Of a stretch of DNA of 64,000 bases, positions 3,500 through 17,126 are shown piece after piece. The position numbers and the translations under genes were made by a program. A model generated the notes under the pieces. The model was not told the origin of the DNA, made no database searches, and saw only the letters and a list, made by a program, of their open reading frames with translations. This DNA is from Sulfurovum sp. GTDB taxonomy: Bacteria; Campylobacterota; Campylobacteria; Campylobacterales; Sulfurovaceae. Numbering within the stretch: the first letter of the stretch is position 1; each line of letters opens with the position of its first letter. The DNA is taken from positions 278,381 to 342,380 of the forward strand of contig JAIZOF010000001.1 of assembly GCA_020525365.1 (NCBI GenBank), given 5' to 3'.

Positions 3500-3683
3500 T
3501 AATCTTTATTATCATGAATTATACTAAAACCTAATAGAGGGAGGGCTATGATGAAGAAAATTATAGTAAAAGCGAGTATCGTATCATTATTTTTGGGACT
3601 GTTTTTAGTTGGATGTGGAAGTAAGAAAAACTTAAATGTTCCCAAAAAAGATTTGACAGCTTCCAAAGATAAAAGTCCTGATA
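3500..3683 (+). repeat. 184-bp direct repeat, copy 1 (lipoprotein promoter and 5' end)
   Basis: Bases 3500-3683 recur at 4679-4862, offset 1179, with no difference seen by eye. The unit spans the upstream region, the ribosome site GGAGGG and the first 45 codons of the lipoprotein gene. The copies part company at the GATA of codons 45-46. Confidence 0.9.
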
Positions 3684-4654
3684 ATGCACTGGTTATTAAA
3701 GGTGAGATCCCAGACAAGGTCTCTGGTGAATTCAATATTGATAATATTTTGAATGTAAGTTCTAATATTCCCTACTTGCATCAAAACCATACAAACTATT
3801 CAGAATATGGAAGTAGTCTAAGGCCAACCCCTACTAAAAATGCAGCCAAAAAGAGTATTGAATGGACCATTGCAGCCAAAACAGAATATGATGCTGCCCA
3901 GCTTGCAGGTCATGTACGTTTTATGGATCAAAAGCTTCAAGAAGGGGTAAGTCCAAGAGCATGGGATAAGCTTTTTCTCATGGAAACCTATATGAAAGTA
4001 AGGCAATTTTACACAACAAATATAAAACAGGGTGGTACAACAGTAATTATTAGTAAAAAAGCAAGCAATAACTGTGCCTATAATGTAATAGCAGCATCTA
4101 GTGATGTTATAAGTGGTCACTTTTTTGGCAAAGGTGATATTACACAAAACTACTCATCAATTGCTGAAGAAATATTGAAAAGTAGTGCGTGTAGTGCCTT
4201 AAGAAGTGATATTGAAATGTATATTCAGGAGAAGAAACAGAAGGAGAAGAAACAGAAGGAGAAGCAAGATAACTCTGAACAAGATAGTTCCAAGAAACAC
4301 AACAGAGGTCAGTATACTCCTCCACCACCGCCTCCCAGCCAATACAACAGAGGTTATTATGCTCCTCCACCACCGCCTCCCAGCCAATACAACAGAGGTT
4401 ATTATGCTCCTCCACCACCGCCTCCCAGCCAATACAACAGAGGTCAGTATACTCCTCCACCACCGCCTCCCAGCCAATACAACAGAGGTTATTATGCTCC
4501 TCCACCACCGCCTCCCAGCCAATACAACAGAGGTTATTATGCTCCTCCACCACCGCCTCCCAGCCAATACAACAGAGGTCAGTATACTCCTCCACCACCG
4601 CCTCTGCAGCCAATACAACAGAGGTCAGAGCAACCCTGTCCCCGTACAATATAG
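3548..4654 (+). CDS. Lipoprotein with a proline-rich tandem-repeat tail
   Basis: Function not recognised. The start is chosen at the first of two ATGs after GAGGGAGGG. Residues 1-23 form a lipoprotein signal peptide with lipobox LVGC (Cys23), so the protein should be membrane-anchored outside the cytoplasm. Residues ~24-225 are an unassigned domain with a conserved-looking ISGHFFGKGDIT segment that recurs in the broken second copy. A charged KQKEK-rich linker follows, then seven 15-residue repeats containing P6 runs and QYNRG. A one-base insertion after the last repeat (near 4606, CTCTGCAGCC against CTCCCAGCC in other units) moves translation to another frame, so the last ~15 residues are probably not the original C-terminus. 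Without it the frame would run on to a tail ending near 4706. Confidence 0.75.
   Translation: MMKKIIVKASIVSLFLGLFLVGCGSKKNLNVPKKDLTASKDKSPDNALVIKGEIPDKVSGEFNIDNILNVSSNIPYLHQNHTNYSEYGSSLRPTPTKNAAKKSIEWTIAAKTEYDAAQLAGHVRFMDQKLQEGVSPRAWDKLFLMETYMKVRQFYTTNIKQGGTTVIISKKASNNCAYNVIAASSDVISGHFFGKGDITQNYSSIAEEILKSSACSALRSDIEMYIQEKKQKEKKQKEKQDNSEQDSSKKHNRGQYTPPPPPPSQYNRGYYAPPPPPPSQYNRGYYAPPPPPPSQYNRGQYTPPPPPPSQYNRGYYAPPPPPPSQYNRGYYAPPPPPPSQYNRGQYTPPPPPLQPIQQRSEQPCPRTI
4310..4624 (+). repeat. Seven 45-bp tandem repeats with a 135-bp higher-order period
   Basis: Units start at 4310, 4355, 4400, 4445, 4490, 4535 and 4580. Each encodes 15 residues with six prolines followed by SQYNRG. The variable dipeptide runs QYT, YYA, YYA, QYT, YYA, YYA, QYT, so three-unit blocks of 135 bp are themselves repeated. 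This is typical of a slippage- or recombination-prone coding repeat. Confidence 0.95.
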
Positions 4655-4678
4655 TCCCAATTCAACAGGAGTCATCAA

Positions 4679-4862
4679 TAATCTTTATTATCATGAATTA
4701 TACTAAAACCTAATAGAGGGAGGGCTATGATGAAGAAAATTATAGTAAAAGCGAGTATCGTATCATTATTTTTGGGACTGTTTTTAGTTGGATGTGGAAG
4801 TAAGAAAAACTTAAATGTTCCCAAAAAAGATTTGACAGCTTCCAAAGATAAAAGTCCTGATA
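4679..4862 (+). repeat. 184-bp direct repeat, copy 2
   Basis: Second copy of bases 3500-3683. It again supplies the ribosome site and signal peptide, then leads into a shortened, diverged lipoprotein remnant. Confidence 0.9.
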
Positions 4863-4979: not shown

Positions 4980-6047
4980 AAAGGGTTTAGCAAGGCCTTG
5001 AGTGATCGAAAAATGTGGAACCATATGCGTATGAGCGATCGCGATCTCTCCGATGTGACTGGCTATACCTACACCTATCTGATGCATGGAAATAACCCTG
5101 CTACACAGTTTAAAGCCCTCTTTAAAAAAGGAGAAAAGGTTCGTCTTCGCTTTATCAACGGTGCGGCGATGAGCTTCTTTGACATACGCATTCCAGAACT
5201 TACGATGACCGTGGTTGCTGCTGATGGCAACCATATCAAACCAATCAGAGTCGATGAGTTCCGCATTGGTGTAGCAGAGACTTATGATGTCATTGTCGAA
5301 CCCAGTAGCGTTAAGGCCTATGCCATTTTTGCTCAAAGTATAGATCGTAGTGGCTATGCACTAGGTTCTCTTACCCCTTCAAATTCTCTGCTTTCCAAAG
5401 CACCAAGAATGGACAATCCTCAAGCGCTTACAATGGTAGATATGGGGATGAAGATGAGTATGAAGTCTCACAAGAAGATGAGTATGGGAATGAAGAAGTA
5501 TCGATGGGAAGAGATGGAGACACAAAAATATCCTATCACACCATTGCCAATGGCAAAAGGACCGCAGACCACTATGGTTGCAACAGATCCCAAATACCGC
5601 CTTGAAGATCCTGGTGTGGGACTACGTAACAATGGTAGACGGGTACTTACTTATGCTGATCTCAAGAACCGCTACTCTACTATTGATGCTCCTAAACCCA
5701 ACAGAGAGATTGTGCTTCACCTTACAGGAAACATGGAACGTTATATGTGGTCAATCAACGGTATCAAGTACGCCGATGCCAAACCATTGATATTTCACTA
5801 CGGTGAGCGACTTCGTATTACACTCATTAATGACACAATGATGAATCATCCTATGCACCTACATGGACTCTGGAGCGACCTTGAGACAGGTGATGACAAC
5901 CATCTAGTACGTAAACATACTGTCATTGTTCAGCCTGGATCAAAAATTAGCTACCGTGTAACAGTTGATGCCAAAGGGGCATGGGTCTACCACTGTCATC
6001 TGCTCTACCACATGGCAGGTATGTTCAGAAAAGTTGTTGTGATCTAA
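4917..6047 (+). pseudogene. 5'-truncated copA copy fused to a lipoprotein remnant
   Basis: From base 4980 the protein equals residues 212-566 of the intact copper oxidase at 10063-11763. It keeps the methionine-rich segment and the last cupredoxin domain (HPMHLHG, HCHLLYH). It lacks the twin-arginine signal and the first cupredoxin domain with half of the trinuclear-copper ligands, so it cannot be a working oxidase. The open frame begins at an ATG inside the lipoprotein remnant, giving a 22-residue foreign N-terminus without a signal peptide. The junction shares only AAA with the intact gene. Transcription could come from the lipoprotein promoter and serve the intact copB just downstream. Confidence 0.9.
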
Positions 6048-6057
6048 GGAGATAGAA

Positions 6058-6744
6058 ATGAAAAAAATATTAAAAACACTCTTGCTGTCCATAGTTATGG
6101 TTACATCGGCTTATGCTGCCAGTGCAGATGATCCACTACGTACCATGTTTCTTGTTGATCAACTTGAACTACGTGGCAACAATGCATATTCTCACACTTG
6201 GGATACTACACTTTATATAGGCTATGATCTTGATAAACTCTATCTTTATAGTAAGGGTGAAGCGACATCAAAGGGGCTGGAGCATACACAGAATGACTTC
6301 GTCTACTCCCGTGCCATCATGCCTTTTTGGGACGTACAAGCAGGTATCTGCTACAACAAAAATACCAATACATCAAATATGTGGTGGGAGATTGCTGTTG
6401 CTGGTCTGGCACCCTACTGGTTTGAAACCCGTGCAGCACTGTTGCTAAATACAAATGGCAATATTGGACTCAGGCTCGATGCTGAATATGAGATGTTATT
6501 TACTCAGAAGCTTATCCTTACACCTAAAATAGAAATGGATTTCTACAGTGAAGATGATTCGATGCTCCAGATAGGTTCGGGGCTCTCATCTGCTGAAGCA
6601 ACACTATATCTACGATATGAGTTTGTGCGAGAATTTGCGCCCTACATTGGAATAAACTGGGGAAAAACATTTGGTAATATGCGTAACAATTATGAACCAG
6701 TAGATAAAACGGTACTGATTGCTGGTGTGAGATTTTGGTTCTAA
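6058..6744 (+). CDS. copB: Copper resistance protein CopB, left copy
   Basis: Outer-membrane, copper-induced protein of the CopAB/PcoAB system. Residues 1-20 are a signal peptide ending SAYA. The family signatures are clear: FLVDQLELRG near the start, YSRAIMPFWDVQAG, GLAPYWFE, a long beta-rich body, REFAPYIGINWGKTFG, and a C-terminal aromatic (RFWF) as in beta-barrels. At 228 residues it is a compact CopB, without the long methionine/histidine-rich N-terminal region of Pseudomonas CopB. It starts 10 bases after the truncated copA copy and has AAGGAG before its ATG. Its translation is identical to the copy at 9366-10052. Whether it has a promoter is unclear because its natural operon partner is truncated. 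Confidence 0.9.
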   Translation: MKKILKTLLLSIVMVTSAYAASADDPLRTMFLVDQLELRGNNAYSHTWDTTLYIGYDLDKLYLYSKGEATSKGLEHTQNDFVYSRAIMPFWDVQAGICYNKNTNTSNMWWEIAVAGLAPYWFETRAALLLNTNGNIGLRLDAEYEMLFTQKLILTPKIEMDFYSEDDSMLQIGSGLSSAEATLYLRYEFVREFAPYIGINWGKTFGNMRNNYEPVDKTVLIAGVRFWF

Positions 6745-6796
6745 GGAGACTCTACTTTGGTGTAACAATGTCACCAGAAACCTCTAGAGTGTTTAG

Positions 6797-6829
6797 ACAA
6801 TAGAGAAAAGCTTAGCTTAGCTCTATTGT
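6797..6829. terminator. Hairpin between left copB and the propeller remnant
   Basis: A 9-bp stem ACAATAGAG/CTCTATTGT lies in the convergent gap. The loop is 15 nt here and 10 nt in the right arm (a 5-base TTAGC-type duplication). It lacks a strong U-tract, so activity as a bidirectional terminator is inferred from position. Confidence 0.5.
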
Positions 6830-6950: not shown

Positions 6951-8276
6951 TCACGCTGGACCATGCGATACTACAAATGAACCCATCGCTAACTTTCCAC
7001 CAATTTCAAGTCGTTGAACTACCTTTTTGGCACTCAAGTCAACTTTAACCAAGCTTCCCTCTTCGGTTAAGAACATATAAAAGTAACGACCATCTTTAGA
7101 GAAGTGATATTGAGGATGAGACTGTGTCTGCACAGTTCCCAGTTCATCTTTTGAGAGTTTACTTACCTCTATATCAGCTATTTTCTCATGGGTTAGTGTA
7201 TTCATCACGGTAATAAAACTATCTTTATGGTTAATCACCACTGCAATATTATTATGTTTCATCTCATCGGTATGCCCTGCACCTTTTCCTGCATGAACTG
7301 TTTTAACAATAGTCATAGGAGAAGTAGTATAGTCTACCACAAATAAGTTCCCCTCATCAGAACCTACATAAATGGTCTTTTGATCTTTTAAGAAATTTAA
7401 GTGATGGACCCCCATAACCTCGGTCGATAGTCCCTCTTTTTTAATCTCTAGGTTCTCAATTATTGAGAGTCCTATTCCTTCTAAAAATTCTAGTTTTAGA
7501 ACTGACGGGTAGACACCATTCGCACCCTCTGCTGTTGCATAAAAAATAGTTGAAGTTTGTATTCCATGCCTAGTGTGATGTTTGGTACCATGGCGCCCAT
7601 GTATCTCTGGTGGAATTAAATTATGAACTGGAGAAGGGGTTTTGATTTCATTGACTTTAGTTGTTTGCCACATACCACTGTTATCTTTTTCTATTTTGTA
7701 GGTTGCAATCTTCTTATGTTGTCTGTCTATCAATACAAAATGGTTCTCATTTAACCAATGAGGATGCCCAGATGCCATTGTGCCACTAGAGATATAGCTG
7801 TGTCCACTTGTTGTTGGATAGGTCACACTATTCTCTCCCACTGTTGCTATAAGCTCATCGGTAGTACTATCAATAATCGCCGTCATAGGTTTATCTACAC
7901 CCGATACTGCTACCAAACCTGTCATCTTTTCTACATCTATACTTCGTGGATGAAATGGCAACTCAATACTTTTTACAATAACATTAATAGATGAATCAAT
8001 AACATCTATAATATTACTTCCTCGATTGTCTACATACATTTTAGGATTTTCCATCCCATGATTAGCTCTGGTTTTGATGATCTCAGCAGCATATGTTTTC
8101 TCATGTCCTGTTACAATGATATCTATCACTTCCATATTTTCTATATCGACTACAACGATAAAGTTATTCATTTTGTCACCAAAATATGCTATTGCTTGAT
8201 CTCTTCCGTACTGACCATAGCCTTGATAGTTCCCGTTAGTAGGTACATTATCAGGGGTTTCATCTCTGGTAACCAT
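6951..8276 (-). pseudogene. YVTN/YncE-like beta-propeller gene, left copy: N-terminus lost, tail decayed
   Basis: Reading leftwards, bases 8270-7746 give ~175 residues found nowhere else in the window (starting TRDETPDN), with repeats typical of YVTN-type propellers (VVVDIENMEVID, IIDSTTDELIATVG). It continues into the arm-encoded half shared with 8271-9272. At the C-terminus, SFVVSHG is followed at once by a stop, where the right copy has a 60-residue tail. The remains of a different QRD/GHSQRG-rich tail follow in several frames. At the 5' end the frame runs into antisense of the right arm, so the signal peptide is missing and the ATG at 8276 is accidental. It was probably an exported copper-locus protein; its exact role is unknown. 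Confidence 0.75.
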
Positions 8277-9272
8277 TTTGTATTGATAGACAGACAACAT
8301 AAGAAGATTGCAACCTACAAAATAGAAAAAGATAACAGTGGTATGTGGCAAACAACTAAAGTCAATGAAATCAAAACCCCTTCTCCAGTTCATAATTTAA
8401 TTCCACCAGAGATACATGGGCGCCATGGTACCAAACATCACACTAGGCATGGAATACAAACTTCAACTATTTTTTATGCAACAGCAGAGGGTGCGAATGG
8501 TGTCTACCCGTCAGTTCTAAAACTAGAATTTTTAGAAGGAATAGGACTCTCAATAATTGAGAACCTAGAGATTAAAAAAGAGGGACTATCGACCGAGGTT
8601 ATGGGGGTCCATCACTTAAATTTCTTAAAAGATCAAAAGACCATTTATGTAGGTTCTGATGAGGGGAACTTATTTGTGGTAGACTATACTACTTCTCCTA
8701 TGACTATTGTTAAAACAGTTCATGCAGGAAAAGGTGCAGGGCATACCGATGAGATGAAACATAATAATATTGCAGTGGTGATTAACCATAAAGATAGTTT
8801 TATTACCGTGATGAATACACTAACCCATGAGAAAATAGCTGATATAGAGGTAAGTAAACTCTCAAAAGATGAACTGGGAACTGTGCAGACACAGTCTCAT
8901 CCTCAATATCACTTCTCTAAAGATGGTCGTTACTTTTATATGTTCTTAACCGAAGAGGGAAGCTTGGTTAAAGTTGACTTGAGTGCCAAAAAGGTAGTTC
9001 AACGACTTGAAATTGGTGGAAAGTTAGCGATGGGTTCATTTGTAGTATCGCATGGTCAACATGAGGATAGTGGAATGATGGGACAATTTACTGTTCAAAA
9101 TAATCCTAATCAATCTGGTCCTGGTCAATCTGGAATAGATCAAAAGAATTCTGATCAACATGATTCTGGTCGATCTGGAATAGATCAAAAGAATTCTGAT
9201 CAACATGATTCTGGTCGCGATCCTGGTTCTGGCCATAGTCAACGTGGTCATGGTCGGTCTAGAAGAGGTTGA
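8271..9272 (+). pseudogene. Beta-propeller gene, right copy: C-terminal two thirds only
   Basis: The real coding homology begins at AAC (8271, NHFVLIDRQ) and runs 333 codons to 9272. Upstream codons in the same frame back to 8058 are antisense of the other copy and are not genuine. The protein part is histidine-rich (HGRHGTKHHTRHG, HAGKGAGH, SHPQYHF), which suits a copper context but is not proof. The tail, from SHGQHEDSG onward, is low complexity with two copies of SGIDQKNSDQHDSGR and ends GHSQRGHGRSRRG. With the 175 residues of the spacer, the ancestral protein was at least 508 residues plus a signal peptide. Neither copy in the window is complete. Confidence 0.75.
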
Positions 9273-9285
9273 TAAATCCCCAATC

Positions 9286-9313
9286 ACAATAGAGCTAAGC
9301 TTTTCTCTATTGT
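9286..9313. terminator. Hairpin between right propeller copy and copB
   Basis: A 9-bp stem ACAATAGAG/CTCTATTGT with a 10-nt loop lies between convergent genes. It is the counterpart of 6797-6829. Confidence 0.5.
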
Positions 9314-9365
9314 CTAAACACTCTAGAGGTTTCTGGTGACATTGTTACACCAAAGTAGAGTCTCC

Positions 9366-10052
9366 TTAGAACCAAAATCTCACACCAGCAATCAGTACCG
9401 TTTTATCTACTGGTTCATAATTGTTACGCATATTACCAAATGTTTTTCCCCAGTTTATTCCAATGTAGGGCGCAAATTCTCGCACAAACTCATATCGTAG
9501 ATATAGTGTTGCTTCAGCAGATGAGAGCCCCGAACCTATCTGGAGCATCGAATCATCTTCACTGTAGAAATCCATTTCTATTTTAGGTGTAAGGATAAGC
9601 TTCTGAGTAAATAACATCTCATATTCAGCATCGAGCCTGAGTCCAATATTGCCATTTGTATTTAGCAACAGTGCTGCACGGGTTTCAAACCAGTAGGGTG
9701 CCAGACCAGCAACAGCAATCTCCCACCACATATTTGATGTATTGGTATTTTTGTTGTAGCAGATACCTGCTTGTACGTCCCAAAAAGGCATGATGGCACG
9801 GGAGTAGACGAAGTCATTCTGTGTATGCTCCAGCCCCTTTGATGTCGCTTCACCCTTACTATAAAGATAGAGTTTATCAAGATCATAGCCTATATAAAGT
9901 GTAGTATCCCAAGTGTGAGAATATGCATTGTTGCCACGTAGTTCAAGTTGATCAACAAGAAACATGGTACGTAGTGGATCATCTGCACTGGCAGCATAAG
10001 CCGATGTAACCATAACTATGGACAGCAAGAGTGTTTTTAATATTTTTTTCAT
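9366..10052 (-). CDS. copB: Copper resistance protein CopB, right copy
   Basis: Same 228-residue protein as 6058-6744, here directly downstream of the complete copA with a 10-base gap and AAGGAG before the ATG. This is the expected copAB operon order. The outer-membrane protein probably works with CopA in sequestering or exporting excess copper. Signal peptide residues 1-20; motifs PFWDVQAG, GLAPYWFE and REFAPYIG are as in the CopB family. Confidence 0.93.
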   Translation of the reverse strand: MKKILKTLLLSIVMVTSAYAASADDPLRTMFLVDQLELRGNNAYSHTWDTTLYIGYDLDKLYLYSKGEATSKGLEHTQNDFVYSRAIMPFWDVQAGICYNKNTNTSNMWWEIAVAGLAPYWFETRAALLLNTNGNIGLRLDAEYEMLFTQKLILTPKIEMDFYSEDDSMLQIGSGLSSAEATLYLRYEFVREFAPYIGINWGKTFGNMRNNYEPVDKTVLIAGVRFWF

Positions 10053-10062
10053 TTCTATCTCC

Positions 10063-11763
10063 TTAGATCACAACAACTTTTCTGAACATACCTGCCATGT
10101 GGTAGAGCAGATGACAGTGGTAGACCCATGCCCCTTTGGCATCAACTGTTACACGGTAGCTAATTTTTGATCCAGGCTGAACAATGACAGTATGTTTACG
10201 TACTAGATGGTTGTCATCACCTGTCTCAAGGTCGCTCCAGAGTCCATGTAGGTGCATAGGATGATTCATCATTGTGTCATTAATGAGTGTAATACGAAGT
10301 CGCTCACCGTAGTGAAATATCAATGGTTTGGCATCGGCGTACTTGATACCGTTGATTGACCACATATAACGTTCCATGTTTCCTGTAAGGTGAAGCACAA
10401 TCTCTCTGTTGGGTTTAGGAGCATCAATAGTAGAGTAGCGGTTCTTGAGATCAGCATAAGTAAGTACCCGTCTACCATTGTTACGTAGTCCCACACCAGG
10501 ATCTTCAAGGCGGTATTTGGGATCTGTTGCAACCATAGTGGTCTGCGGTCCTTTTGCCATTGGCAATGGTGTGATAGGATATTTTTGTGTCTCCATCTCT
10601 TCCCATCGATACTTCTTCATTCCCATACTCATCTTCTTGTGAGACTTCATACTCATCTTCATCCCCATATCTACCATTGTAAGCGCTTGAGGATTGTCCA
10701 TTCTTGGTGCTTTGGAAAGCAGAGAATTTGAAGGGGTAAGAGAACCTAGTGCATAGCCACTACGATCTATACTTTGAGCAAAAATGGCATAGGCCTTAAC
10801 GCTACTGGGTTCGACAATGACATCATAAGTCTCTGCTACACCAATGCGGAACTCATCGACTCTGATTGGTTTGATATGGTTGCCATCAGCAGCAACCACG
10901 GTCATCGTAAGTTCTGGAATGCGTATGTCAAAGAAGCTCATCGCCGCACCGTTGATAAAGCGAAGACGAACCTTTTCTCCTTTTTTAAAGAGGGCTTTAA
11001 ACTGTGTAGCAGGGTTATTTCCATGCATCAGATAGGTGTAGGTATAGCCAGTCACATCGGAGAGATCGCGATCGCTCATACGCATATGGTTCCACATTTT
11101 TCGATCACTCAAGGCCTTGCTAAACCCTTTTTGCTTAACCTCTGAGAAGAAATCACCTATGGTTTTTTGGTTGAAGTTGTAGTAATTGCTTAAGAGCTTT
11201 AGTTTGCGATAGATACTGTCTGGTTTTTCATCACTCCAGTCTGAGAGTAGTATGGTATGTTCTCTGTCGTAATGAAAAGGCTCCTTGTGTTTGGGTTTGA
11301 TGACAATAGCACCGTACATCCCTGTCTGCTCCTGATAACCACTGTGACTATGGTACCAGAATGTACCATGTTGATGTACCTTAAAGCGATAGGTGAAGGT
11401 CTCTCCAGGAGCAATACCTTCATAGCTGACACCAGGTACACCATCCATTTTGTAGGGGAGAATAATACCATGCCAATGGATGGAAGAGCTCTTTTTAAGA
11501 TAATTGGTAACATGGATGGTTACGGTCTCTCCTTCTTTCCATACAAGTGTAGGTCCTGGAATCTGTCCGTTGATGGTTGTGGCAATTGTAGGTTTTCCTG
11601 TTTTGTTTACTGTGGTATAGTCTATTTCTAAAAAGAACTCATTTCCTTCTAATATGGTTTTTCTGCTTGGCGTTTTATGGGGTATTGATGCTTGAAGCTT
11701 TATGCCTGCTACGCCTGCAATGGAAGCAGTGGTTACCCCTTTAATAAATGTGCGTCGTAACAT
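10063..11763 (-). CDS. copA: Multicopper oxidase, copper-resistance type CopA (periplasmic)
   Basis: Complete 566-residue protein. Residues 1-26 look like a twin-arginine signal (LRRTFIKG) ending near LQAS. Copper ligands sit in the expected places: HWH at 96-98, WYHSH at 137-140, HPMHLHG at 501-507 and HCHLLYH from 549. Cys550 is the type-1 copper thiolate. A methionine-rich stretch (MGMKMSMKSHKKMSMGM) in the third quarter is characteristic of CopA/PcoA and would bind Cu(I). The spacing from Cys550 to the following methionines is one residue shorter than I recall for PcoA, so the axial ligand is uncertain. It oxidises Cu(I) in the periplasm and is co-transcribed with copB. A candidate operator repeat lies 86-102 bases upstream. 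Confidence 0.94.
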   Translation of the reverse strand: MLRRTFIKGVTTASIAGVAGIKLQASIPHKTPSRKTILEGNEFFLEIDYTTVNKTGKPTIATTINGQIPGPTLVWKEGETVTIHVTNYLKKSSSIHWHGIILPYKMDGVPGVSYEGIAPGETFTYRFKVHQHGTFWYHSHSGYQEQTGMYGAIVIKPKHKEPFHYDREHTILLSDWSDEKPDSIYRKLKLLSNYYNFNQKTIGDFFSEVKQKGFSKALSDRKMWNHMRMSDRDLSDVTGYTYTYLMHGNNPATQFKALFKKGEKVRLRFINGAAMSFFDIRIPELTMTVVAADGNHIKPIRVDEFRIGVAETYDVIVEPSSVKAYAIFAQSIDRSGYALGSLTPSNSLLSKAPRMDNPQALTMVDMGMKMSMKSHKKMSMGMKKYRWEEMETQKYPITPLPMAKGPQTTMVATDPKYRLEDPGVGLRNNGRRVLTYADLKNRYSTIDAPKPNREIVLHLTGNMERYMWSINGIKYADAKPLIFHYGERLRITLINDTMMNHPMHLHGLWSDLETGDDNHLVRKHTVIVQPGSKISYRVTVDAKGAWVYHCHLLYHMAGMFRKVVVI

Positions 11764-11848
11764 AATATTTCCTTTGTGTTACTTTTGTAGGTTTTGTTAA
11801 CCTCTATTTTCTATTGTAAAGTGTTGATTATAAAGTATAATGGTATTT

Positions 11849-11865
11849 TGTGTAGATTGTGTGTA
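11849..11865. promoter_or_regulatory. Candidate copper-regulator operator upstream of copA (proximal)
   Basis: TGTGTA-N5-TGTGTA direct repeat with an 11-bp period (11849-11854 and 11860-11865), one helical turn as expected for tandem OmpR-family binding. The same arrangement occurs at 12128 and at 13318. Confidence 0.55.
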
Positions 11866-11943
11866 ATGTTTAGGGTTTGGAGAGAGTTTTGTATTGATTG
11901 TTTTTATTATTGCAAACTGCCACAAAAAAGAGAAAGATTTGTG

Positions 11944-12042
11944 GCTTGGCGTTTTATGGGGTATTGATGCTTGAAGCTTTATGCCTGCTACGCCTGCAAT
12001 GGAAGCAGTGGTTACCCCTTTAATAAATGTGCGTCGTAACAT
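11944..12042 (-). pseudogene. Duplicated first 33 codons of copA
   Basis: Product of the tandem duplication: MLRRTFIKG through HKTPS, then out of copA into intergenic sequence. The frame stays open to 11797, so an 81-residue nonsense peptide with a twin-arginine signal could be made. It has its own ribosome site (AAAGGAAAT). Confidence 0.85.
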
Positions 12043-12127
12043 AATATTTCCTTTGTGTTACTTTTGTAGGTTTTGTTAACCTCTATTTTCTATTGTAAAG
12101 TGTTGATTATAAAGTATAATGGTATTT

Positions 12128-12144
12128 TGTGTAGATTGTGTGTA
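12128..12144. promoter_or_regulatory. Candidate copper-regulator operator, duplicated copy (distal)
   Basis: TGTGTA-N5-TGTGTA at 12128-12133 and 12139-12144, the tandem-duplicate of the site at 11849. Confidence 0.5.
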
Positions 12145-12192
12145 ATGTTTAGGGTTTGGAGAGAGTTTTGTATTGATTGTTTTTATTATTGC

Positions 12193-12229
12193 AAACTGCC
12201 ACAAAAAAGAGAAAGATTTGTGGCAGTTT
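12193..12229. terminator. Strong hairpin terminator directly after the second multicopper oxidase
   Basis: A 13-bp perfect stem (AAACTGCCACAAA with TTTGTGGCAGTTT) with an 11-nt A-rich loop begins immediately after the stop codon at 12230. On the minus strand it would end the upstream oxidase transcript. The tandem duplication copied about three quarters of it to 11914-11943. Confidence 0.75.
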
Positions 12230-13255
12230 TTATGCAGTTTTAGAAACATTAATTGTAAGAAACTTTTGATCATAGTTGTATTCCATCAGGCTAAGTGATT
12301 TGTTAAGATCATTGGTGAGGTCTACAACAATTTCAGCACGTTCGGCAGGAGAGAGTGTTAATCGTGTAAGTGTAACGGGTGTTTCAAGAAAACCACTGTC
12401 TGTAGCAATCTGTTTAAAGCTTCGACCATCTGAAAAACCAAGGTTATACATAGTGGAGTTAGAACCATTAAGAATACGGAAACGTATCTCTTTTGCTTCT
12501 GCGTCAAATGTAGGATCTATAGCACCGTTAACAATAAAGGTATCACCTACATATCCCATCATAATCTCCATCCGAGAAGGTGAATATACAATGTTTGCAT
12601 TGCTGTCAAATCTTCTATCTTGAAGTACAAGTGGAATATCGTCAACTCCATAGCGTTTTGGTAGATTTAGTTTGGCACTTTTGTCATCTTCAACAATAAT
12701 CATTCCTGCAATACCCTTATAGACATGCTGTGCGGTTTTGTGAAGTGTGTGAGGATGGTACCATGCAGTAGATGCCTGTTGCTTTACGGTAAATTGTGAT
12801 GACCATGTACTGCCTGGATTGATTGTTTGCCAAGGGGTGCCATCCATTCCTGGAGGAACATGCAAGCCATGTCCATGCATGGTAATGTTTTCAGAGAGTC
12901 TATTGGTATAGTTAATAGAAACACTCTCTCCATTTTTTATCAATAGTGTTGGTCCCAAATAGGTTGTATTGACAGCATAAGTAGGGGTTTGTGCTTCGGT
13001 AAAAAAACTGTGTTGGGCTTCGTGTATAGTCAAATCATATTGTTTTATGTCATCAGGTGTACCACTTCCTGTCCCTACTAAAAGTTGTGGAATGGGAAGT
13101 GATCTGTATTTTAAGCCCAGGGTTTCACTTAGTGGTTCATATTTTGGAGTTAGGTTTTCACTTCCAGCACCACGTGATTCGGCACGTGGACCACATCCTG
13201 TCAAGAGTGCTGCCGCTGCCGCTACGCTTAACGTTAAAAATTCTCTTCTTTGCAT
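12230..13255 (-). CDS. CueO/SufI-like multicopper oxidase lacking the third cupredoxin domain
   Basis: 341 residues; the family normally has ~450-530. A twin-arginine-type lipoprotein signal is visible (QRREFLTL, then LLTGC with Cys21). Domain 1 has the copper ligands HGH at 127-129 and WYHPH (His167, His169). Domain 2 ends with SPAERAEIVVDL. Translation stops just after FLTINV, so the third domain with the type-1 site and the second half of the trinuclear ligands is absent. No frameshifted remainder is seen downstream, where a strong terminator follows at once. It may be a copper-binding lipoprotein rather than an oxidase, or a deletion product. AAGGAG precedes its ATG, and it is divergent from the regulator genes. 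Confidence 0.8.
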   Translation of the reverse strand: MQRREFLTLSVAAAAALLTGCGPRAESRGAGSENLTPKYEPLSETLGLKYRSLPIPQLLVGTGSGTPDDIKQYDLTIHEAQHSFFTEAQTPTYAVNTTYLGPTLLIKNGESVSINYTNRLSENITMHGHGLHVPPGMDGTPWQTINPGSTWSSQFTVKQQASTAWYHPHTLHKTAQHVYKGIAGMIIVEDDKSAKLNLPKRYGVDDIPLVLQDRRFDSNANIVYSPSRMEIMMGYVGDTFIVNGAIDPTFDAEAKEIRFRILNGSNSTMYNLGFSDGRSFKQIATDSGFLETPVTLTRLTLSPAERAEIVVDLTNDLNKSLSLMEYNYDQKFLTINVSKTA

Positions 13256-13317
13256 GTTTTCTCCTTAACTATTATTTGATATTTTTTTAAGATATTATTG
13301 ATATATTATACAAATTG

Positions 13318-13334
13318 TGTGTAGGTTGTGTGTA
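13318..13334. promoter_or_regulatory. Candidate copper-regulator operator in the divergent oxidase/regulator gap
   Basis: TGTGTA-N5-TGTGTA (13318-13323, 13329-13334) within an 11-bp perfect repeat of TTGTGTGTAGG. It lies 63-79 bases upstream of the second oxidase and ~90 bases before the regulator start. It shares period and core with the two copA sites. Confidence 0.6.
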
Positions 13335-13424: not shown

Positions 13425-14078
13425 GTGAAAATACTTGTTATGGAAGATGATCCTGTATTGGGGGAGATTATTGTTGATTATCTTTTAGAGTATTATAGTG
13501 TCAATAGGGCATTTGATGCAAATGAGGCACAAGGTCTTATAGAAAAGAATCACTACGATTTATTGATTTTTGATATTAATGTTCCTCAAAAAAGTGGAGT
13601 AGAACTCATAAGAGAGCTTCGTAGTTTTAACAATATGACACCAGCGATTATAATTACTGCCTATGATGATTTGATGTATCTCAAAAAGAGTTTTGATGCT
13701 GGTGCTCATGATTATATCAAGAAACCTTTTGAACTTGAAGAGCTCAAATTGCGTATTGAAAAGAGTAAAAAACTTTTTTGCATAGAGCAAGAAGAGGTTT
13801 TGAGCCTAGATAAAAAACTTGTCTACTACCCAAGTAAGAGAGTTATTAGCAATGGTACACAGGAGTGGATTTTGAGTCCTAAGGAGAAGGAGATACTTGA
13901 TTATTTCATTGCCCATCCACATCGTCCAATCTCTTTTGAGGAGCTTGCACAGAATATTTGGGAGTTTGATGTTATGCCAAGTGATGCAACTTTACGATCC
14001 TATATACGTAAACTTAGAGAGATTATTGGTTCCAAAAAGATTATGACACAAAGGGGCATAGGGTATTGTTATGAATGA
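13425..14078 (+). CDS. OmpR/PhoB-family response regulator (CopR-like)
   Basis: DNA-binding half of a two-component system that probably senses copper, inferred from its neighbours. GTG at 13425 is chosen as start: it follows GGAGGG by four to five bases and places VKILVMEDD at the N-terminus, as usual for receivers. In-frame upstream codons are unlikely to be translated. Receiver residues 1-115: acidic pocket Asp8/Asp9, phospho-acceptor Asp50 (LLIFDINVPQ), Thr/Ala switch (ITAYDD), Lys in IKKPF. Winged-helix C-terminal domain: LSPKEKEIL, SDATLRSYIRKLR, and RGIGYCYE at the end. It overlaps the kinase gene by 8 bases. Confidence 0.92.
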   Translation: MKILVMEDDPVLGEIIVDYLLEYYSVNRAFDANEAQGLIEKNHYDLLIFDINVPQKSGVELIRELRSFNNMTPAIIITAYDDLMYLKKSFDAGAHDYIKKPFELEELKLRIEKSKKLFCIEQEEVLSLDKKLVYYPSKRVISNGTQEWILSPKEKEILDYFIAHPHRPISFEELAQNIWEFDVMPSDATLRSYIRKLREIIGSKKIMTQRGIGYCYE

Positions 14079-15216
14079 ACTAGAAAAAAAATCCTTCTAC
14101 TCCTTTTTGGGACTCTATATTATCTCTTCTTTTCTGTTTATAGGAATTATTGGTTATTGGTACTATGTTGCACAGAAAAATGCATTGGAGAATGAGGCCT
14201 ATTACCGCTTGGTACATATGGCTGACAAGATATCAGATAATATTATTTTTGCCCATATGCAACAACGTACTCGTAGTCCCTTGAATCTTCCTGATGATAT
14301 TATTCTTGCTCTTGTTAATACGAAAGGAAAGATTGTTGAAGGTAGCTTGATTGATAGTGCTCCTTTAAGTGAGGGCTATATCTGGAAAAATGGATACAAT
14401 ATCTTAGTCTCTAGTGCACCAAGAGAGCATCTTAATATTAAATATGTGGTACTTCAGACAGATTTTCTTAAGCATAAAATGACCACACTGAGGACAACAG
14501 TAGTTAATGTAATGATAGTTGTTGCACTCTTTATTGCATTGATAGCATGGGTTCTCTCTAAGATTTTTATACGCCCAGTACATCAACGTGTTAAGCAGAT
14601 AGAGAGCTTTATTAATGATGTTACCCATGAGCTCAATACGCCTATCTCTTCTTTAACAATGGCAACAGATCAGGCACTTAAGCAAGGAGAGTGTAGCAAG
14701 AAAATACTCAAAAATATCTCCATTAGTACTAGGCAATTGTATGATATTTATCGCTCTTTGACCTACTTGAATTTTTCTACAAATAAAGAACATGACGAAG
14801 TGATTGATCTTATGGAAGTACTTAAATGCAGTATAGCCTACTATAAGCCACTTGCTGAAGTTAAGCAGATTTCATTGAAAGTTGAGACAGAAAGTACAAA
14901 GTATATGATTCCAAAAGCACAGGCAACACTTCTGTTTGGAAATCTGATAAGTAATGCCATTAAATACTCCTCAAGAAGATCGAAGATAGAGCTAAGTCTA
15001 AAAGATCAGATGTTTAGAATCAAAGATTATGGCATGGGTATCGACCCTAAAAAACAAAAAGAGATCTTTAAAAAATTTACACGAGCGACCTCCTACTCTG
15101 GTGGATTTGGTGTTGGTTTGAGTATTGTTAAAAGTATTTGTGAGCAGTATCACATCGATATAGAACTCAATTCTATTTTAGATGAAGGAGCAGAATTTAG
15201 ACTCTATTTTTCTTAA
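14071..15216 (+). CDS. Membrane sensor histidine kinase (CopS-like)
   Basis: Sensor of the two-component pair. Transmembrane helix near residues 12-32, periplasmic sensor ~33-145, second helix ~148-168, then a short HAMP-like linker. The H-box (INDVTHELNTPISSL) has the phospho-accepting His186. The N-box (LFGNLISNAIKYSS) and G-boxes (DYGMGIDP, GFGVGLSIVKSI) form the ATPase domain. The 381-residue length is normal. The periplasmic part has few histidines or methionines, so copper sensing is inferred only from the adjoining copper genes. Confidence 0.92.
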   Translation: MNELEKKSFYSFLGLYIISSFLFIGIIGYWYYVAQKNALENEAYYRLVHMADKISDNIIFAHMQQRTRSPLNLPDDIILALVNTKGKIVEGSLIDSAPLSEGYIWKNGYNILVSSAPREHLNIKYVVLQTDFLKHKMTTLRTTVVNVMIVVALFIALIAWVLSKIFIRPVHQRVKQIESFINDVTHELNTPISSLTMATDQALKQGECSKKILKNISISTRQLYDIYRSLTYLNFSTNKEHDEVIDLMEVLKCSIAYYKPLAEVKQISLKVETESTKYMIPKAQATLLFGNLISNAIKYSSRRSKIELSLKDQMFRIKDYGMGIDPKKQKEIFKKFTRATSYSGGFGVGLSIVKSICEQYHIDIELNSILDEGAEFRLYFS

Positions 15217-15443: not shown

Positions 15444-15857
15444 ATGATAGGAATTTCCACTAAAACCATTTATGCAGTAGCAGCACTTCGTGAGCTTGAA
15501 AATGCTTCTGGAAATGATGTTCTAAAGATTAAAGAGATTGCAGCACGTGCCTCCATTCCACAAAATTTTCTTGAACAGATATTGCTTGAACTAAGAAAGC
15601 AAGGGATACTTTTGAGTATCAAGGGTGCACATGGTGGATACAAGCTTGCCAAAAATCTTAAAGATATTACGCTTAAAGATATTGTTATGATTTTAGAAGT
15701 TGATGCATTTGGTGATATTTGCCGTACAGGCAATATGGTATTAAAACTTTTTTGGGAAGATATACAAAAAGGTATTGAAGAGGTCTTTTGTATTCCACTT
15801 TCAGAACTCAATCATTATGAAATGAGAGCCAACGAAACATTCAATTATTCAATATAA
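15444..15857 (+). CDS. Rrf2-family transcriptional regulator
   Basis: 137 residues with the family layout: winged helix from residue 1 (STKTIYAVAALRELE), the recognition part IKEIAARASIPQNFLEQILLELRKQG, and the wing KGAHGGYKLAK. The region that holds three clustered cysteines in IscR/NsrR types has only one here (ICRTGN), with another later (VFCIPL), so an iron-sulfur cluster is doubtful. It is like CymR, the cysteine-metabolism member. It lies 24 bases upstream of a sulfur amino-acid enzyme, which supports a role in cysteine/methionine supply. The 227 bases before it show no other gene. Confidence 0.88.
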   Translation: MIGISTKTIYAVAALRELENASGNDVLKIKEIAARASIPQNFLEQILLELRKQGILLSIKGAHGGYKLAKNLKDITLKDIVMILEVDAFGDICRTGNMVLKLFWEDIQKGIEEVFCIPLSELNHYEMRANETFNYSI

Positions 15858-15881
15858 ATTTTCATCATTAGGATTAAAAGA

Positions 15882-17126
15882 ATGAATAAAAATTTTGACT
15901 ACTACAATACGTTTTTGGTTCAAAGTGTAGGTTCCAAAGTAGGACCTGTTGCACCAACAATTGCACCTTCTGCGGCATTTGGATATATGGATGCTCAGGA
16001 AGCAGAGAGTATCTTTGCTGGCGAAGTGAACAAGCCACTTTATGCTAGAGTAGGCAATCCGACAAACAGTAAACTTGAAAGTATTGTTGCCAAAATGGAA
16101 AATGGTTTTGGCGCTATTGCAACTGCCTCAGGTATGGGAGCACTTTCCATGATTATGACAGCTTTTCTTAAAGCGGGCGATGAGGTGCTCTGTATCGGAG
16201 GTTTTTTTGGTGGCACCTATACACTTGTCAATGAAACATTTAAGCGATTTGGAATTTACAATAGTTTTTGTGATGTGAATGATTTTGCCCATATAAAGGA
16301 AAAGCTGGCATCGGGTGTGAAGATAGTACTTATGGAGAGTGTGGGAAACCCAAGTCTCAGGCTCCCTGACATCAAACATATCGCAGATATTTGTAATGCC
16401 TACAAGACACTGCTTGTAGTGGATAATACAGCAACACCACTATTGGTAAGACCATTGGAACTTGGGGCTGATATTGTGATACACTCTAGTACTAAGAATA
16501 TAAGCGGTCATTCTGCTGCACTGGGTGGTATTGCAATCTTTCGTTCGGTTAAAGAGAATAGCGATAAGCTTTATAGCAAGAAGTATGCCGATATACATAA
16601 GATTGTTAACAAGATGGGAGATAAAGCTTTCATCTCCATTTGTAAAAAGCGAGCCATTCGTGATATGGGGATGACTGCTAATGCTTTTGGCTCTTTTTTA
16701 ACAATGTTAGGGCTTGAGACCCTATCGCTTCGTATAGAACGTGTGAATAAGTCTGTTGCTATAGTGGCAAATATTCTCGATAAAAAATTACCAAATAGTA
16801 TGAGCATTAATCACCCCTCTTTGCCTCAAAGTGAGGATCATGTGCGCTATCAGCTTGATTTCCCTCATGGTTGTGGTCCATTGCTGACACTTGATGCAGG
16901 TAGTGCTGAGCGCGCCTTTGCATTTTTAAATAATCTTAAATTGGCAACACTCACAGCAAATATTGGAGACAACCGTACGCTAGCGCTTCATATGCAGAGC
17001 ACTATCTACAGTGATTTTAGCCCTGAAGACAGAAAGTTTCTTGGTGTAACAGAGGGGCTCATCCGCGTCTCAATAGGACTCGAAGACCCTGAGGTGATTG
17101 CTAAAGATTTTTTACAAGCTGTTTAG
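15882..17126 (+). CDS. PLP-dependent O-acetylhomoserine sulfhydrylase/methionine gamma-lyase family enzyme
   Basis: Cys/Met-metabolism PLP family, 414 residues. Visible: the substrate/PLP loop PLYARVGNPTNSKLE, the GFFGGTY segment, ESVGNPSLRLPDI, the cofactor aspartate in VVDNTATP, and the Schiff-base lysine Lys205 in HSSTKNISGH. It most likely makes homocysteine from O-acetylhomoserine and sulfide, or degrades methionine or cystathionine; the sequence alone does not separate these. Probably transcribed with the Rrf2 regulator upstream. Convergent with sppA. Confidence 0.88.
   Translation: MNKNFDYYNTFLVQSVGSKVGPVAPTIAPSAAFGYMDAQEAESIFAGEVNKPLYARVGNPTNSKLESIVAKMENGFGAIATASGMGALSMIMTAFLKAGDEVLCIGGFFGGTYTLVNETFKRFGIYNSFCDVNDFAHIKEKLASGVKIVLMESVGNPSLRLPDIKHIADICNAYKTLLVVDNTATPLLVRPLELGADIVIHSSTKNISGHSAALGGIAIFRSVKENSDKLYSKKYADIHKIVNKMGDKAFISICKKRAIRDMGMTANAFGSFLTMLGLETLSLRIERVNKSVAIVANILDKKLPNSMSINHPSLPQSEDHVRYQLDFPHGCGPLLTLDAGSAERAFAFLNNLKLATLTANIGDNRTLALHMQSTIYSDFSPEDRKFLGVTEGLIRVSIGLEDPEVIAKDFLQAV

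Follow-up and report, generated by a model that had tools for sequence, protein, structure and literature searches.

CrdRS of Helicobacter pylori has been linked to copper and is a two-component system from the same phylum as Sulfurovum. A text search of PMC9927306 gave no match to a site, motif, repeat, EMSA or footprint, and one of a paper on copper resistance in Nitratiruptor (PMC10092412) gave none to two-component or promoter. Operators have been described for several other systems. The PhoP box repeats a hexamer in direct orientation, with 5 bp between the copies (PMC2681069). The AgrR box of Cupriavidus has the consensus ATKACANNNNTGTMAT, an inverted 6-4-6 repeat (PMC7380067). In Sulfurospirillum the regulator PceP (RR2), whose signal is tetrachloroethene, is associated with the repeat CTATW-N17-CTATW (PMC7755780). 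Among the matches listed in a search of the open-access literature, no described site for copper control in Sulfurovum or Sulfurimonas, and no TRCACA box, was found.

Here we describe a direct repeat in a window of 64,000 nucleotides (64 kb; the whole stretch of Sulfurovum DNA that was analysed). The exact word TGTGTA-N5-TGTGTA is found three times on the + strand, at the boxes of Table 1, and nowhere else in the window. Only 0.02 occurrences are expected by chance, and none of 100 dinucleotide shuffles of the window gave more than one. When two mismatches were tolerated, the window held 11 matches against 7.55 expected, which is the chance level; therefore only the exact form was taken as meaningful, and the relaxed search was dropped for want of enrichment. 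The initial annotation had placed the repeat twice upstream of copA and once in the divergent gap. All three sites are present, but the two copA sites are copies of one, because a 279-bp tandem duplication copied the first site, so that the independent sites number two. The annotation was right that the element has the same orientation to both oxidase genes: the two genes are on the - strand, and in their direction each box reads TACACA-N5-TACACA. The duplicated copy has the same half-sites in this promoter sense. Read towards the oxidase genes, TRCACA-N5-TRCACA is followed after 9 nt by a -10-like TANNNT, a spacing that relatives share. The only box in the divergent gap of the window faces the oxidase and not the regulator.

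Table 1. Features of the copper island in the window, with one example of the paralogous regulator from a relative (- strand boxes are read in the sense of the oxidase genes)
Feature	Position	Strand	Remarks
CopB family copper resistance protein	9366..10052	-	domain match
copA-type multicopper oxidase	10063..11763	-	TIGR01480
Perfect 279-bp tandem duplication, two units	11665..12222	.	units 11665-11943 and 11944-12222, 100% identical; carries copA start, promoter and box
Truncated copA leader ORF	11797-12042		81 aa; faced by the second box copy
-10-like TATACT	11834..11839	-	exactly 9 nt past the copA box; spacing kept in relatives
Candidate regulator box, copA promoter	11849..11865	-	TACACACAATCTACACA in gene sense; exact match; 102 nt before copA ATG
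Second copA box	12128..12144	-	copy made by the 279-bp duplication; faces the cut-off 81-aa copA leader ORF
CueO-like multicopper oxidase, truncated behind domain 2	12230..13255	-	341 aa; first two domains left
TANNNT (TAATAT)	13303..13308	-	9 nt past the 13318 box, oxidase side; overlapped by TATAAT
Candidate regulator box, oxidase/response-regulator divergent gap	13318..13334	-	TACACACAACCTACACA; 79 nt before oxidase ATG, 91 nt before regulator GTG
OmpR-family response regulator (A), predicted reader of the box	13425..14078	+	Response_reg and Trans_reg_C
Sensor histidine kinase, putatively paired with the regulator	14071..15216	+	domain and profile matches
Clade B regulator, example	L241:1489-2142	-	conserved OmpR-type paralogue

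The copA-type oxidase scores 776 bits with TIGR01480 (cut-off 479). The adjacent regulator, referred to below as A, belongs to the OmpR/PhoB family, with PF00072 and PF00486 both above their cut-offs. It falls far short of the CopR/CusR model TIGR01387 (cztR_silR_copR; 86.4 against 279.2 bits) and of the PhoP model (67 against 336 bits). Its best NCBIfam model is NF007928 (PmrA/BasR), yet at 126.4 bits it stays under the cut-off of 330; the solved chains that it matches include PmrA/BasR (4s04/8jo2). Its nearest named relatives come from a Campylobacterales MAG (77%) and from Sulfurovum MAGs, and orthologues within the genus are 65-77% identical. Beside the kinase, at 15444-17126, lie an Rrf2 gene and a sulfhydrylase-like gene (named by eye), which in two relatives (G072 and G067) adjoin a boxed Cus-type efflux cluster and not the oxidase island.

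The region is rearranged. Perfect inverted repeats join 4980-6817 to 9293-11130 (1838 nt) and 6959-7745 to 8271-9057 (787 nt), with a centre near 8000. They create a second, partial copA-copB copy, which arose by inverted duplication not long ago or else is an artefact of the assembly. The three relatives aligned with the CueO-like oxidase are 472-503 aa long and extend further at the C-terminus. The body of the window's gene stops at 12230, beside the boundary of the tandem duplication, and a 13-residue piece resembling the C-terminus (85% identical, E 0.004) lies on the opposite strand at 9057-9095, at an inverted-repeat boundary. From its sequence the oxidase gene looks split, as if by inversion. 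Further away, a lipoprotein-like gene contains a tandem array of 45-nt units (4251-4655), and a perfect 184-nt direct repeat (3500-3683 and 4679-4862) duplicates the start of this gene.

The spacing of the half-sites was measured in 32 non-redundant Sulfurovum loci around regulator orthologues (171,326 bases), with the window's own left out. TRCACA half-sites gave 27 matches at spacer 5, against 0-2 at every other spacer from 0 to 24, including 2 at spacer 16, where a third repeat would be expected to appear. The reversed word gave 1 match at spacer 5. The 27 matches correspond to 25 places in 16 of the 32 loci, since some sites can be read on both strands; the other 16 loci, many of which span just 1.5 kb upstream, lack the exact box. 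Thirty-seven Sulfurimonas-type loci gave a similar picture, with 11 matches at spacer 5 and 0-2 at the others. The candidate site is thus specific in its spacer and has a period of 11 bp (6+5). Many regulator orthologues have T(A/G)CACA-N5-T(A/G)CACA upstream.

The distance to the -10-like word is likewise fixed. Of 82 boxes, 78 have a TANNNT that begins 9 nt further on (76 of 80 when the window's boxes are left out), and no other distance accounts for more than 9. A count over all loci is biased, because the TANNNT pattern itself served to retrieve some of them; the 82 boxes are therefore those of loci retrieved through a regulator or oxidase protein and not by motif. The box occupies the place of a -35 element, a position that would fit an activator touching the polymerase.

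The strict box with its TANNNT is present in 78 of 150 related genomes, and 77 genomes of the same genus contain 370 matches against 4 for the reversed pattern. Within the genus the regulator was scored, at E below 1e-60, in 38 relatives; these and the window's own genome, 39 in all, each carry at least one box. Among the 39 genus genomes scored without the regulator, 25 have boxes and 14 do not (Fisher p = 3e-5, for relatives that are not independent). Some of the 25 are incomplete: in G022, G060 and G008 the island meets a contig end about where the regulator is expected. Four others (G072, G027, G029 and G041) are 99% complete, carry boxes and apparently lack regulator A. A box serving the copper regulator alone was rejected, since nearly complete relatives without A carry boxes.

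Among the 30 loci L013-L042, several with little upstream DNA, 8 have an exact box in the sense of the regulator within 350 nt of its gene. Upstream of copA, a same-sense exact box was found within up to about 1.5 kb of 12 of 19 same-genus genes, a count that leaves out the window's own loci (L153 and L181), partial genes (L171 and L177), a weak match (L178) and loci from outside the genus (L172-L176). A narrower count over 24 loci, four of them without a recognised start, gave a box within 450 nt at 8. The copper islands of relatives (L225-L236, among the islands listed) have boxes before genes for copper ATPases, oxidases, small secreted-looking, cytochrome-like and efflux proteins and before the regulator; most of these islands were picked for having boxes and are illustrative, not countable. 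ATPase, channel and pump domains were identified among the boxed island genes, some divergent gaps hold two boxes back to back, and in G024, G016 and G012 a boxed copper ATPase gene is followed by the regulator.

Four genomes possess A without a second, paralogous regulator (clade B, below). Their 29 strict matches include boxes before genes for copper-type ATPase, oxidases, CusC-like, HMA-domain and DUF302 proteins, thioredoxin and the regulator. Further boxes precede acyltransferase-like, FAD-protein-like and 119-aa lipoprotein-like genes or no callable ORF, and two fall within called ORFs. We know of no copper link for the acyltransferase-like and FAD-protein-like genes. A Pfam search of the CusC-like fragment gave no match, and the cytochrome match lay under its cut-off.

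The genome of the window's organism comprises 1.466 Mb in two contigs and contains the exact form five times: the three window sites, C1:557424 and C1:568241. The match at C1:557424 falls within an ORF, 590 codons or longer, that continues past the stretch examined. The match at C1:568241 is intergenic and is, with the three in the window, the only strict box. This intact box precedes a DUF4395-type gene (L002:1442-2056) that is interrupted by stops and frame shifts and is related to a boxed DUF4395 protein of G027. Sites with one mismatch elsewhere in the genome (stretches L003-L012) were mostly in coding sequence or without a clear downstream gene, and none was counted.

What is observed is a conserved repeat with a set spacing, a set place before the -10-like word and a characteristic genomic company. 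Taken together these observations make it highly probable that the adjacent OmpR-family two-component regulator uses TRCACA-N5-TRCACA as its operator and activates copper-defence genes. Two regulator subunits would bind head to tail to half-sites one helical turn apart (6+5 bp). The bound box would replace the -35 element, 9 nt upstream of the -10. Activation would reach copA-copB via the 11849 box and the CueO-like oxidase via the 13318 box. The scheme predicts that the regulator binds the box, that the kinase phosphorylates the regulator, that copper is the signal and that transcription is activated rather than repressed. The initial annotation had already proposed the repeat as a likely binding site of the adjacent regulator, since OmpR-family regulators typically bind tandem half-sites spaced by about one helical turn, and the proposal gains from the 11-bp period, the 9-nt distance to the -10, the copper and regulator promoters of relatives and the boxes in 39 of 39 regulator genomes.

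Other origins of the repeat fit these observations less well. A functionless chance or TG-rich low-complexity repeat agrees with the chance-level count of two-mismatch sites in the window, but it leaves the excess of the exact form, and a spacer and -10 distance that are fixed across genera, without a cause, and is very improbable. Hardly any more credible is a by-product of DNA duplication in a rearranged region. The 11849 and 12128 copies do lie in a tandem duplication with large perfect inverted repeats nearby; against this, the 13318 site is outside the duplication and has a different spacer sequence, and relatives have the same box. More serious, though still unlikely, is that the box is read mainly by the clade B regulator, and that the boxes at copper genes reflect a wider B regulon and not the adjacent protein. 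In a tree of OmpR-type regulators from ten genomes (among the matches listed), clade B, about 40% identical to A, occurs in six box-bearing genomes and is missing from four box-free ones (G034, G035, G036 and G048). A genus search agrees with the tree and found it in 62 of 78 genomes. All 35 genomes with both regulators have boxes, as do all 4 that have A alone; boxes occur in 23 of the 27 genomes that have B alone and in 2 of the 12 that have neither, absence being uncertain in incomplete genomes. The recognition helix of B (ATIRTYIKNLR) resembles that of A (ATLRSYIRKLR).

Several points weaken this attribution to B. The genus search found no B in the window's genome, which has A and where the copper boxes are intact; the adjacent regulator is thus the best candidate reader there. 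All four A-only genomes are boxed, though two of them (G069 and G071) are only 78-83% complete and share boxes, so that the four are not independent. The likeness of the helices proves little, because a further clade with a similar helix (TALRTYIKNLR) occurs in box-free genomes too. No box precedes the B gene itself at any of 30 loci, and with that clade in box-free genomes the case for B as a reader is one of co-occurrence. Such co-occurrence is weak evidence, as the genomes with neither regulator may be one lineage. Regulator A as reader at the copper promoters of the window's organism is thus the reading we retain. The element at the copper promoters is real, conserved and operator-like, of the type used by an OmpR-family two-component system, with the adjacent regulator the likeliest reader in this genome.

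The word itself may have a wider use. The initial annotation had proposed a motif search of the genome and its relatives, with a motif common at unrelated promoters as the case against the proposed binding site. The outcome is mixed. Boxes also occur in G072 and G027, the 99%-complete relatives apparently lacking A whose box neighbourhoods were examined. There they precede genes for a cupin-like protein and for outer-membrane efflux proteins (PF02321 in one that was scanned), among others; the boxed genes of G027 further include a peroxidase (PF00141), grpE (PF01025) and a DUF4395 gene. Because these genomes seem to lack A and the genes include ones outside copper defence, the word is probably common to at least one other regulator, and a second regulator probably reads it. 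TGCACA half-sites make up 30 of 56 in A-only genomes and 8 of 52 in four B-only genomes, taken from a set of twelve, a comparison among related genomes in which some near-identical boxes are counted twice. One tentative scheme, which we regard as somewhat less than an even prospect, is that A (copper) and B (a wider stress regulon) share the operator word TRCACA-N5-TRCACA-N9-TANNNT. The small-genome organism of the window would then have lost B and kept the exact word almost only at copper genes, plus a leftover box before the broken DUF4395 gene. If two regulators do share the word, they offer a natural case of paralogous two-component systems parting or sharing promoters. For Sulfurovum and Sulfurimonas the box also provides a candidate operator of copper control that lends itself to testing, and it would allow the copper regulon to be read directly from genomes.

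Set against the described systems, the Sulfurovum box has the 6-5-6 geometry of the PhoP type: a hexamer-N5-hexamer direct repeat with a reader predicted here to be of the OmpR family. It differs in its half-site TRCACA, which is not the PhoP hexamer, in its copper genes and in a regulator far under the PhoP cut-off. The PmrA/BasR box differs in half-site and regulon, and the Sulfurovum regulator, for which the PmrA/BasR model scores best, is not a member of that group by the curated NF007928 cut-off. With AgrR, as with CopR/CusR, the resemblance is one of function, in metal-related control by an OmpR-family two-component system, and the Cupriavidus set includes the divergent copA2-copR2 gap (PMC7380067). 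Both window sites are direct 6-5-6 repeats, unlike the inverted 6-4-6 repeat reported there for AgrR. PceP is likewise an OmpR-family regulator of the Campylobacterota, and its direct repeat overlaps the -35 region at some promoters (PMC7755780); its half-site, spacing and signal are all different from those of the Sulfurovum box. The box is new, as far as the open-access literature searched goes, and its kind, the OmpR-family direct-repeat operator, is well known; the finding is sound and useful and of an unsurprising kind.
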